Assembly (NCBI RefSeq): GCF_023502235.1
Contig: NZ_JAMFLY010000004.1
Span: 124,001-188,000, forward strand
Source: Flagellimonas myxillae
GTDB lineage: Bacteria > Bacteroidota > Bacteroidia > Flavobacteriales > Flavobacteriaceae
Direction of reading: 5' to 3'
DNA: 64,000 bases
This document shows, in pieces, positions 28,338 to 30,219 of the stretch. Positions within the stretch are counted from its first letter, which is position 1; each line of letters starts with the position of its first letter. Made by a program: the position numbers and the translations under genes. The notes below the pieces were generated by a model. That model saw only the letters and a program-made list of their open reading frames with translations. It was not told the origin of the DNA and made no database searches.

Positions 28338-28369
28338 AATTCTTGTATTTTCTCAGCATGCTTCGACTG

Positions 28370-28541
28370 TACTCAGCACAGGCTTCGGAGAGATTTCCCA
28401 TTGGTTAATGCTCTCGTCTCGCATACTTTTTTGTCTTTTCCACTTTGCACGGGAGGAGAGACTTCCTTCGACTAAACTCAGGATAAACTTCTCGTCCCAG
28501 TATACTTTTCGTCTATTCTACTTTGCACGGGAGGAGAGACT
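28370..28541. repeat. tandem units of REP element plus tRNA-Trp 3'-end copy
   Basis: A 22-bp exact direct repeat occurs at 28442-28463 and 28520-28541. The second copy is the 3' end of the tRNA-Trp gene (last 16 nt plus 6 nt of flank); the first is a displaced copy without the rest of the tRNA. Imperfect similarity continues for about 25 bp to the left of both. REP-like TTCGACTnnnCTCAG sequences lie at 28372-28385 and 28468-28481, one before each copy. The unit is about 78 bp. Confidence 0.8.
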
Positions 28542-28598
28542 CGAACTCCCGACACCTGGTTTTGGAGACCAGTGCTCTACCAACTGAGCTACACCCGT
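28526..28598 (-). tRNA. tRNA-Trp (CCA anticodon)
   Basis: The 73-nt cloverleaf has the anticodon loop CTCCAAA, a D-arm AGCTCAGTTGGTAGAGC and a T-arm GGGAG-TTCGAGT-CTCTC. The acceptor stem is ACGGGTG/CTCCCGT with one T-T mismatch at the sixth pair. The discriminator is G and CCA is not encoded. It lies between tuf and secE, a conserved position. Confidence 0.95.
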
Positions 28599-28615
28599 TT
28601 ATATTTACACTGAAA

Positions 28616-28640
28616 GGTATTCCGCATAAAACGGAACACC
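28616..28640 (-). other. hairpin between tuf and tRNA-Trp
   Basis: GGTATTCCG (28616-28624) pairs with CGGAACACC (28632-28640), a 9-bp stem with one G-T pair and a 7-base loop. On the minus strand it is followed only by TTTCAG. It may be a weak terminator of tuf or an RNA-processing site before tRNA-Trp. Confidence 0.45.
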
Positions 28641-28670
28641 CTTTAGTGCAATATTTTATTGTAAAATGAT

Positions 28671-29858
28671 TTAATCTAGGATCTCAGTAACCTGACCGGC
28701 ACCTACCGTTCTACCACCCTCACGGATAGCGAAACGAAGACCTACACTCAATGCGATTGGTTGAATCAAATCAACATTGATAGTCAAGTTATCACCAGGC
28801 ATTACCATTTCAACTCCATCAGGAAGACCAATGTTTCCTGTTACGTCAGTAGTTCTAACATAGAACTGTGGACGGTAGTTGTTGTGGAATGGAGTGTGAC
28901 GACCACCTTCTTCTTTCTTAAGGATATAAACCTCTGCTTTGAATTTAGCGTGTGGCTTAACGGAACCTGGCTTACAGATTACCATACCTCTTTTGATATC
29001 GGATTTTTCAATACCTCTCAAAAGGATACCTACGTTATCACCAGCTTCACCTCTATCCAAAATCTTACGGAACATCTCAACACCAGTAATGGTAGAAGCC
29101 AATTTCTCAGCACCCATACCAATGATATCAACTGCATCACCAGTATTGGCGACACCAGTTTCGATACGACCAGTAGCAACAGTACCACGACCAGTAATGG
29201 TGAATACATCTTCTACAGGCATCAAGAAGTCTTTATCAACATCTCTTTTTGGAAGCTCGATCCACTCATCAACAGCAGCCATCAATTCCATAACAGTATC
29301 AACCCATTTTTGCTCACCGTTAAGTGCTCCAAGGGCAGAACCGGAAATTACAGGTCCGTTGTCACCATCATACTCATAGAAAGAAAGCAATTCCCTTACT
29401 TCCATCTCAACAAGTTCCAAAAGCTCCTCATCGTCAACCATGTCAACTTTGTTCAAGAAAACAACAATTCTTGGAATACCAACCTGACGTCCAAGAAGGA
29501 TGTGCTCACGAGTTTGTGGCATAGGTCCATCAGTTGCAGCAACAACCAAGATAGCACCGTCCATTTGAGCAGCACCAGTAACCATGTTCTTTACGTAATC
29601 CGCGTGACCTGGACAGTCAACGTGAGCGTAGTGACGGTTCTGAGTTTGATACTCTACGTGAGAAGTGTTAATTGTAATACCCCTTTCTTTTTCCTCAGGC
29701 GCATTATCAATAGAATCAAAGCTTCTAAGCTCTGACAAACCTGCATTAGCCAATACAGTAGTAATAGCAGCAGTCAATGTGGTTTTACCATGATCCACGT
29801 GTCCAATAGTACCAATATTTAAGTGCGGTTTGGAACGATCAAAAGTTTCCTTTGCCAT
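28671..29858 (-). CDS. tuf: translation elongation factor Tu
   Basis: EF-Tu has 395 residues. GTPase motifs are [10 protein letters not shown] (about 19-28), the T-containing switch I with [17 protein letters not shown] and NKVDMVDD. Domain 2 ([18 protein letters not shown]) and domain 3 ([20 protein letters not shown]) are intact. It delivers aminoacyl-tRNA to the ribosome. The gene is flanked by tRNA-Thr(GGT) and tRNA-Trp, the same neighbourhood as tufB in Escherichia coli, and is likely co-transcribed with the four tRNAs upstream. Confidence 0.98.
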
Positions 29859-29908
29859 TTTTAAATAATTTTAATCTTAGTTTATATTAGTGTGTACAAA
29901 TCGTTTTG

Positions 29909-29980
29909 AGCCAATGACGGGATTTGAACCCGTGACCTCTTCCTTACCAAGGAAACGCTCTACCCCTGAGCTACACCGGC
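29909..29980 (-). tRNA. tRNA-Thr (GGT anticodon)
   Basis: The 72-nt cloverleaf has acceptor GCCGGTG/CATTGGC (two G-T pairs), anticodon loop TTGGTAA and a T-loop in CGGGTTCAAATCCCG. The discriminator is T and CCA is not encoded. It lies 50 bp upstream of tuf. Confidence 0.95.
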
Positions 29981-30028
29981 GTAAAGTGTTGAATCAACTC
30001 CTTCAAAATCCTTTTTAAAGGAAGAGAC

Positions 30029-30044
30029 TCCTGCCTTCGCAGGA
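30029..30044. repeat. small palindrome (REP-like) between tRNA-Gly and tRNA-Thr(GGT)
   Basis: TCCTGC and GCAGGA form a 6-bp stem around CTTC. The word CTGCCTTCGCAGGA is a common dispersed palindrome type in flavobacterial spacers. It lies on the far side of the displaced tRNA-Gly fragment. Confidence 0.55.
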
Positions 30045-30064
30045 AAGACAAAAATGTCAATTTA

Positions 30065-30162
30065 GAGCGGGAGACCGGGTTTCCCTCGTCTTCGCTCAGG
30101 ATAAACTTCTCACCCTACCAAAAGGCCAATCACTTTATCCTTTTTGAGCGGGAGACCGGGTT
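30065..30162. repeat. displaced tRNA-Gly 3' end with REP element
   Basis: A 17-bp exact direct repeat occurs at 30065-30081 and 30146-30162, period 81 bp. The second copy is the last 16 nt of tRNA-Gly plus one flanking base; the first is an orphan copy. Between them CTCAGGATAAACTTCTC (30095-30111) is identical to 28477-28493 beside tRNA-Trp. Both junctions fall three bases before the end of the T-loop. Confidence 0.8.
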
Positions 30163-30219
30163 CGAACCGGCGACATTCAGCTTGGAAGGCTGACGCTCTA
30201 CCAACTGAGCTACTCCCGC
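30147..30219 (-). tRNA. tRNA-Gly (TCC anticodon)
   Basis: The 73-nt cloverleaf has acceptor GCGGGAG/CTCCCGC, anticodon loop CTTCCAA, D-arm AGCTCAGTTGGTAGAGC and a T-arm with TTCGAAC. The discriminator is T and CCA is not encoded. It lies between tRNA-Tyr and tRNA-Thr(GGT). Confidence 0.96.

Follow-up and report, generated by a model that had tools for sequence, protein, structure and literature searches.

Two tRNA genes in the window, as the whole 64,000-nucleotide stretch of Flagellimonas myxillae DNA analysed is called here, carry what are probably gene-less insertion modules that target the T-loop of tRNA genes, replacing the tRNA 3' end and displacing the old one. Each module would have three parts: a new 3' end for the tRNA, running from A58 to the discriminator; a trailer, in which a terminator is often found; and a hairpin with a conserved core, the 5' arm of which is complementary to the target tRNA's own 3' end. 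On insertion between R57 and A58, the 3' end and trailer of the module would complete the tRNA and the old 3' end would be pushed downstream as an orphan. Because the target would thereby be regenerated, further units could enter and stacks would arise, with the older units outermost. This reading draws on features demonstrated by comparison of sequences, namely an exact junction, recurrence in 16 tRNA families, a covarying arm, empty Trp sites and the sharing of tRNA-side trailers at Asn loci. The modules look like a miniature element aimed at tRNA genes that has yet to be described; the open-licence literature searched yielded no account of them, which is weak evidence of novelty.

In the sense of the tRNA, the order of a unit is the tRNA, a trailer, a short arm, GAGAAGTTTATCC(T/C)GAGNNNAGNCGA(A/G)GG, one purine, and then the tRNA again from A58 to its 3' end. 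The intact tRNA-Trp(cca) occupies 28525..28598 of the reverse strand, as called by ARAGORN and Rfam (RF00005). Its module of 78 bp (28464..28541, reverse strand), delimited from the sequence and from occupied versus empty sites between tRNA-Trp and secE, is composed of the last 17 nt of the tRNA (A58 to the 3' end, 28525-28541, read as module-supplied by comparison with the empty sites), the trailer and arm (28494-28524), the hairpin signature GAGAAGTTTATCCTGAG...AGTCGAAGG (28465..28493, reverse strand) and a purine (28464). The arm, GTCCC on the forward strand (28494-28498), stands before the signature and can pair with N59-N63 of the orphan, with one G.U. The orphan itself, the displaced 3' end of tRNA-Trp from A58, follows at 28447..28463 of the reverse strand. 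Beyond it lies what is read from the sequence as an older, decayed unit (28356..28446, reverse strand), with a trailer, the remnant of a second orphan (28387-28394), a hairpin interrupting that remnant (about 28359-28386) and the last tRNA bases (28356-28358). The Trp locus of the window comprises a fresh inner unit and a decayed outer one. The intact tRNA-Gly(tcc) (30146..30219, reverse strand; ARAGORN and Rfam RF00005) has a module of 81 bp (30082..30162, reverse strand), made up of the last 17 nt of the tRNA (30146-30162, likewise read as module-supplied), the trailer, the arm (ACCC on the forward strand, 30112-30115), the hairpin signature (30083-30111) and a single closing purine (30082), and the orphan tRNA-Gly 3' end, again from A58, is at 30065..30081 of the same strand.

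A sequence-only reading of this DNA had reported a second copy of the last 16 nt of each tRNA. The copies are indeed exact, and begin at the same T-loop position in both tRNAs as was claimed; that position is A58, such that the copied length is 17 nt and not 16. The 17-bp word CTCAGGATAAACTTCTC, said to be common to both loci, is identical at 28477-28493 and 30095-30111, and the periods of 78 and 81 bp correspond to the lengths of the Trp and Gly modules. Chance had been argued against, and the best of 145 shuffled controls reached 12/16 compared with at least 14/16 for real copies.

The genome to which the window belongs (G000; 3.94 Mb, 34 tRNAs by Rfam) contains four sites matching CTCAGGATAAACTTCTC with at most two mismatches (two exact and two with one mismatch; one for the reversed-pattern control), and all four are directly 3' of tRNAs, those for Trp, Gly, Leu-tag and Gln. 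Hairpin-joined copies follow the tRNAs for Trp, Gly, His, Gln and Leu-tag, and a terminator-like trailer is part of the units at His, Gln and Leu; copies of Arg-acg and, in degenerate form, Ser-tga have no hairpin. A mirror image occurs at tRNA-Met (fMet-like), with an orphan 5' end upstream, joined to an inverted hairpin at the D-loop; it is also present in G005 and G018. Across the genus, 145 distinct tRNAs of six genomes were surveyed (32 of the 34 tRNAs of G000 and partial tRNA lists of the others) for a 16-nt copy from A58, matching at 14/16 or better within 300 nt downstream. This gave 18 copies, five of which are ordinary tandem Glu-Glu genes, leaving 13 real ones; nine of the 13 are joined to a hairpin of the same core, which takes a variant form in two of the nine (Ile of G005 and Ile of G018), and four have no hairpin. 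A gapped pattern of T-arm plus hairpin matched 25 of 71 genus genomes, and 14 of the 34 rows listed for it were read as tRNAs (Asn in six genomes, Gly in five and Trp in three).

The association with tRNA genes does not depend on searching for them. The signature alone, with no tRNA in the pattern, was scanned across a collection of 84,980 species genomes and yielded at least 116 loci and at least 142 matches; all 116 listed loci were analysed. An ARAGORN tRNA lies in the same sense within 400 nt upstream in 111 of the 142 matches listed, and in 110 of these 111 a copy of its own 3' end directly follows the signature (the adjacent tRNA's own 14-mer from A58, at 10/14 or better). Among these 110 listed matches, the copy begins at an offset of +1 in 106, +2 in three and 0 in one. 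Sixteen tRNA families are represented among the matches listed, chiefly Thr (30), Trp (15), Leu (12), Gly (9), Ile, Asn and Gln (8 each), followed by Arg and Met (5 each), His (3), Ala and Pro (2 each) and Asp, Ser, Glu and Lys (1 each). Reading of the other 31 listed matches found 18 further tRNA-end copies, three doubtful cases, nine without a copy and one cut. For the 18, the tRNA is beyond the edge of the locus, missed, broken or farther along an array, and 16 of them reach 12/14, which none of 400 random places does; at L278, L281 and L339 there is a tRNA-end copy with no intact partner tRNA in view. The total of tRNA-end copies is therefore about 128 of the 142 matches listed. Of the 112 listed matches with a tRNA, 96 have fewer than 80 nt between the tRNA and the start of the signature. 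The sequence-only reading had proposed a search for more tRNA loci with this junction, and many more are present. Hosts among the loci listed are mostly Flavobacteriaceae, along with Pedobacter, other Bacteroidota MAGs and one Chlorobiota MAG. Seven records listed are from candidate phyla, with a clear copy in three (CPR2 L276, Woesebacteria L293 and Shapirobacteria L303), a doubtful one in two (Curtissbacteria L233 and Roizmanbacteria L286) and none in Blackburnbacteria L304 and Daviesbacteria L313; an Omnitrophota record (L309) also has the signature without a tRNA copy.

Comparison of occupied and empty sites in relatives had likewise been proposed, and the Trp-secE interval, readable in 21 of 24 genus genomes, does vary by presence or absence of the unit. 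Thirteen of the 21 genomes are cleanly empty, with a spacer of 18-21 bp and no hairpin, five (G000, G006, G008, G011 and G017) have a unit and a spacer of 91-196 bp, and three (G001, G003 and G018) have the decayed form alone, at 80-93 bp. The arrangement in G006 is like that of the decayed outer unit of the window. In G017 and G008, the bases 3' of the orphan resemble those 3' of the tRNA in the empty genomes. The three states need at least eight changes on the local gene tree, on which several forks are open, and shuffled labels need a mean of 7.5; presence of the Trp unit is therefore patchy. The tRNA-Trp of G006 has C60 and its orphan T60, as in G003, G004 and G015, which are its nearest relatives on the tree. 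At tRNA-Gly, the next tRNA lies 88-94 nt away in five genomes and 164-167 nt away in four occupied genomes, and the spacer sequence past the orphan is not the same in occupied as in empty genomes, leaving no letter-perfect empty site.

Trailers at tRNA-Asn bear on which of the two copies is the newer. The module trailers of six genomes align with one another (scores 36-100), while the orphan trailers do not (14-22), except in the sister pair G011/G085 (155), whose Asn orphans have no evident terminator. Because the module trailers are common to six genomes and the orphan trailers differ in all but one pair, the module most likely brings the new tRNA end and the orphan would be the displaced old end; the direction of insertion, that is, which copy is new, is in this sense presumptive. 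The orphan trailer of G079 resembles the native trailer of the empty G000 (35) and G017 (25). Within genomes, the module and orphan trailers are unrelated in four of six (10-15), weakly similar in a fifth (27) and alike only in G003 (53). The Asn locus of G018 has a terminator and trailer of the module type with neither hairpin nor orphan, for which the reverse direction would also fit. Together, the occupied and empty sites, a module trailer common to genomes with differing orphan trailers, and, in one genome, an orphan bearing the allele of its lineage support what was one of two readings offered from the sequence, a tiny element that restores the tRNA.

The arm that precedes the hairpin is complementary to the tRNA end of its own locus and covaries with it among 127 unique elements. 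Watson-Crick pairs with N59, N60, N62 and N63 of the orphan are formed in 106, 93, 97 and 76 of the 127, respectively, compared with 88, 74, 76 and 55 in the best of 1000 shuffles, which exchange partners and ignore the relatedness of elements. Pairing with N64 is weaker than at these positions, and pairs at N61 and N65 do not exceed the shuffles in the same 127 elements. The alternatives are C-G/T-A and A-T/G-C, with further G-T-type pairs. The inner pair 13/26 of the hairpin is formed in 124 of 127 elements (best shuffle 92), as T-A in 91 and C-G in 33, and encloses an invariant tandem G.A/A.G and a tip that is mostly C-GNA-G. RNAalifold on the 127 elements predicted the inner stem only and not the arm. 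Arms of at least 10 bp (G-T counted) reach the acceptor strand at L243, L259, L263, L279 and L303. A derivation of the arm from the tRNA's own T-stem 5' strand was considered and rejected, as the arms of Thr, Leu and Pro units follow the complement of the second copy where the 5' side of the tRNA differs. Runs of identity between the arm and the T-stem 5' strand average 2.57, versus 1.60 when shuffled (maximum 1.86), so there is some identity too; complementarity to the tRNA end nevertheless appears to describe the arm better. The hairpin would be what the enzyme recognises, and the T-arm and hairpin may both be recognised as folded hairpins.

The T-loop is one of the sublocations used by tRNA-targeting integrative elements. 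As with prophages, ICEs and islands of this kind, insertion at the loci described here would be within the tRNA, with the 3' end restored and a fragment displaced. tRNA genes are classic sites at which mobile DNA docks; the known occupants, however, extend over kilobases and bring an integrase, whereas these units, of about 80 bp (78-81 bp in the window), contain no gene at all, employ one hairpin across 16 tRNA families, have an arm complementary to the target and stack up to six deep. They would thus work like a tRNA-targeting integrative element but without the integrase, and were not REP sequences by the tests made. It is unlikely, if not implausible, that they are satellites of tyrosine integrases of prophages or ICEs, the hairpin serving as a minimal attP that the integrase of a resident island inserts in trans at the T-loop. 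Integration of this kind is known to restore the tRNA and to leave part of it duplicated at the far end (PMC9897764). The genus also has orphan ends without a hairpin. One hairpin serves all 16 families, though, and it is the arm that matches each tRNA instead, whereas the identity block of a single tRNA is what an integrase usually recognises. The exact signature was absent from viral contigs, and one 78-base query had no similar sequence in plasmids or phages; carriage on either was rejected on the same grounds. If the preferred reading of gene-less modules is true, they represent a minimal, target-adapted form of tRNA parasitism and would account for the tRNA fragments and exchanged trailers of Bacteroidota.

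REP and REPIN sequences are short, dispersed intergenic hairpins with stem mismatches, and RAYT (Y1) transposases belong with them. The units differ in having a precise tRNA target, the end of which they replace. REP sequences have a GTAG/CGTC tag and are placed without a fixed target; the fixed signature of the units is found at tRNA ends, and neither of its own ends shows GTAG or CGTC. A RAYT as the enzyme was tried and rejected, since the Y1 domain (PF01797) has no match in G000, with five of 14 control genomes positive. In a comparison with MITEs, which have terminal inverted repeats, a target duplication of fixed length and a cognate transposase, the stretch duplicated in the units was found to be as short as 17 nt or to include the trailer along with the tRNA end, and no terminal repeats were noticed.

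Small GIY-YIG nucleases, whose genes can be found in broken copies of tRNAs or tmRNA and are flanked by hairpins, are the best candidates for the enzyme, which would act in trans, and are put forward tentatively. The link, from gene neighbourhoods and shared sequence, is one of association, and neither a mechanism nor proof. GIY-YIG matches were found in all 24 genomes searched, housekeeping ones included. Thirty small ones (at most 160 aa) were counted by hand among the listed rows for seven genomes, and eight of the 30 lie at a tRNA, tmRNA or an orphan thereof, at four independent sites. Three are orthologous insertions before tRNA-Leu(taa), in the order orphan Leu 5' end, palindrome, GIY-YIG gene and intact tRNA; one follows tRNA-Arg(tcg) and precedes a tRNA copy broken by two hairpins; three form a tandem array in G018, each followed by a tRNA-Ala 3' part with its arms replaced by hairpins, and no intact tRNA-Ala was called near this array; and one, in G000, is about 140 bp 3' of the tmRNA (RF00023, L083 1834-2232). 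Four GIY-YIG frames occur in the 116 loci listed, three of them adjoining tRNAs, in a set that is biased by its selection through the signature. At Leeuwenhoekiella L240 and Pedobacter L247, the frame has an intact tRNA-Asn on one side and, on the other, a second copy that is broken by hairpins and that the signature then follows; in the loci read, no GIY-YIG gene stands between a tRNA and a GAGAAG-type signature without such an intervening broken copy. The two flanks of a small GIY-YIG frame match each other in inverted orientation better than 99% of shuffles for 26 of 46 frames, and 17 of 46 exceed the 95% level set by pairing flanks of different loci; the 46 include several orthologues and eight from loci fetched by a hairpin pattern, and the long GIY-YIG control was a single gene (0/1). 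The core CTGAGCGNAGTCGAAG is common to the tRNA units and one family of GIY-YIG flanks, which is one orthologous site in several genomes; as the GIY-YIG loci with the core hairpin are mostly this one place, they were not counted as independent. Four of the proteins have a plain GIY-YIG domain (PF01541) and no NCBIfam match above cut-off.

GIY-YIG homing nucleases and Slx1-like GIY-YIG proteins are among the closest known systems: some small GIY-YIG genes of the genus are placed in broken tRNA or tmRNA copies and many between hairpins. The units have no reading frame, and none is possible in 78-81 bp; the shared core links them to GIY-YIG mobile elements by association only. It is possible, if somewhat doubtful, that all of these form a previously unrecognised class of mobile DNA. 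Gene-less hairpin modules, mobilised in trans by small GIY-YIG nucleases that read structure, would then home to the T, D and anticodon loops of tRNA and tmRNA genes and swap tRNA ends, with arms that copy the target and one matched module per tRNA family, across Bacteroidota and candidate-phylum bacteria; the palindromes dispersed around GIY-YIG genes in the genus would be part of the same system. Through the modules, the idea that palindromic repeats of these genomes are moved by small GIY-YIG nucleases can be put to a concrete test. The orphan tRNA parts beside GIY-YIG genes have hairpins of various kinds in the D, anticodon or T arm, as would be expected if two independent steps were involved, in which a GIY-YIG or other event duplicates part of a tRNA and an unrelated mobile hairpin then enters the unprotected orphan, hits in functional tRNAs being lethal; with one signature at one exact position in 106 of the 110 copies listed, such a sequence of events is rather improbable.

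The covarying arm, with its further G-T-type pairs, might also belong to a selected RNA device, in which the orphan end would pair with the arm as an alternative hairpin of the tRNA precursor, either to tune 3' processing or as a decoy for the enzymes involved, like the tyrT repeats of Escherichia coli. These repeats (rtT) are tandem 178-bp units 3' of one tRNA, each starting with the tRNA 3' end. Among known arrangements they come closest to a precedent for tRNA 3' ends in tandem; they are not known to share a hairpin signature. RNA folds of three elements chosen for their long arms gave z-scores of -3.21 (L303), -2.06 (L263) and -3.30 (L243), and those of the window units were -2.21 for Gly (in an alternative fold) and a weak -1.14 for Trp. 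Folded as DNA, the same elements scored -3.22, -2.17 and -3.84, with -1.68 for the Gly unit of the window and 0.35 for its Trp unit, the last no better than shuffles. Long arms may equally reflect how the module was made, no Rfam family was called at the unit stretches, presence is patchy, and the outer copies of arrays are equal to or worse than the first and never better, all of which render a selected device improbable.

Tandem duplication of the tRNA 3' end and trailer by local recombination or slippage, with the hairpin already downstream or arriving separately, is very unlikely: it would account for the trailers that are alike after the two copies in 23 of 62 pairs, as local duplication gives such likeness too, and for arrays of near-identical units, up to six, but not for the 13 empty Trp spacers without a hairpin, the unrelated trailers of the two copies at several loci, including most pairs at Asn, or a junction, GG(R)|A58, that keeps AGG beyond TCGA. 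The specific crossover first suggested, between TTCGA of the T-loop and TCGA of the repeat, is rejected as the origin because AGG separates the TCGA of the repeat from the copied tRNA, the actual junction being GAAGG(A/G)|A58. Under the preferred reading of inserted modules, arrays of 2-6 units may still owe their growth to duplication; in 11 such arrays, the last copy is worse than the first in five and equal in six. Where at least 35 nt precede the signature, a T-run is present after the tRNA in 42 of 57 units, after the orphan in 37 of 57 and after both in 33, compared with 1 of 27 and 7 of 27 for tRNA and orphan in units with less than 35 nt, and with 37 of 120 tRNAs that have no element.

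In the window's own genome, G000, the 5' end of a tRNA-Met gene (fMet-like) recurs as an orphan upstream of that gene, where it is joined at the D-loop to the hairpin of the tRNA units in inverted orientation (G000:C10:505598-505763; loci L013, L037 and L090). The orphan 5' end and its inverted hairpin are also present in two other genomes of the genus, G005 and G018. This arrangement is the antisense-strand mirror of the T-loop case, in which a gene-less hairpin is joined to a copy of the tRNA 3' end. Tandem repetition of such units is found in Tamlana nanhaiensis (L311), where tRNA-Gly is followed by six units of 116 bp each, with a perfect 17-nt end copy in every unit except the last. Downstream 3'-end copies from which the hairpin is absent accompany tRNA-Arg(acg), tRNA-Ser(tga), tRNA-Ala(ggc) and tRNA-Arg(tct) (L025, L026, L177, L211), and are possibly remnants of ordinary islands.

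Small GIY-YIG genes also occur beside tRNA or tmRNA sequences and palindromes. One lies approximately 140 bp 3' of the tmRNA (L083, G000:C1:262472-265666), flanked on both sides by hairpins that were judged by eye to be related; its score for inverted matching between the two flanks was low, at 20. At L374 (G018:C1:509800-511500), each of three tandem GIY-YIG genes is followed by a 3' part of tRNA-Ala, with hairpins in place of the anticodon arm and T-loop. Across L376-L388, many small GIY-YIG genes are bracketed on both sides by copies of dispersed palindromes, which belong to different families.

Within the window, a further hairpin, CCTGCCTTCGCAGG on the + strand (30030-30043), is situated just past the orphan 3' end of tRNA-Gly, and hairpins resembling it are found at the corresponding position in G056, G074 and G078. 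The window additionally contains a Bacteroid-trp leader (Rfam RF01692; 42517-42627, + strand, 63.6 bits).
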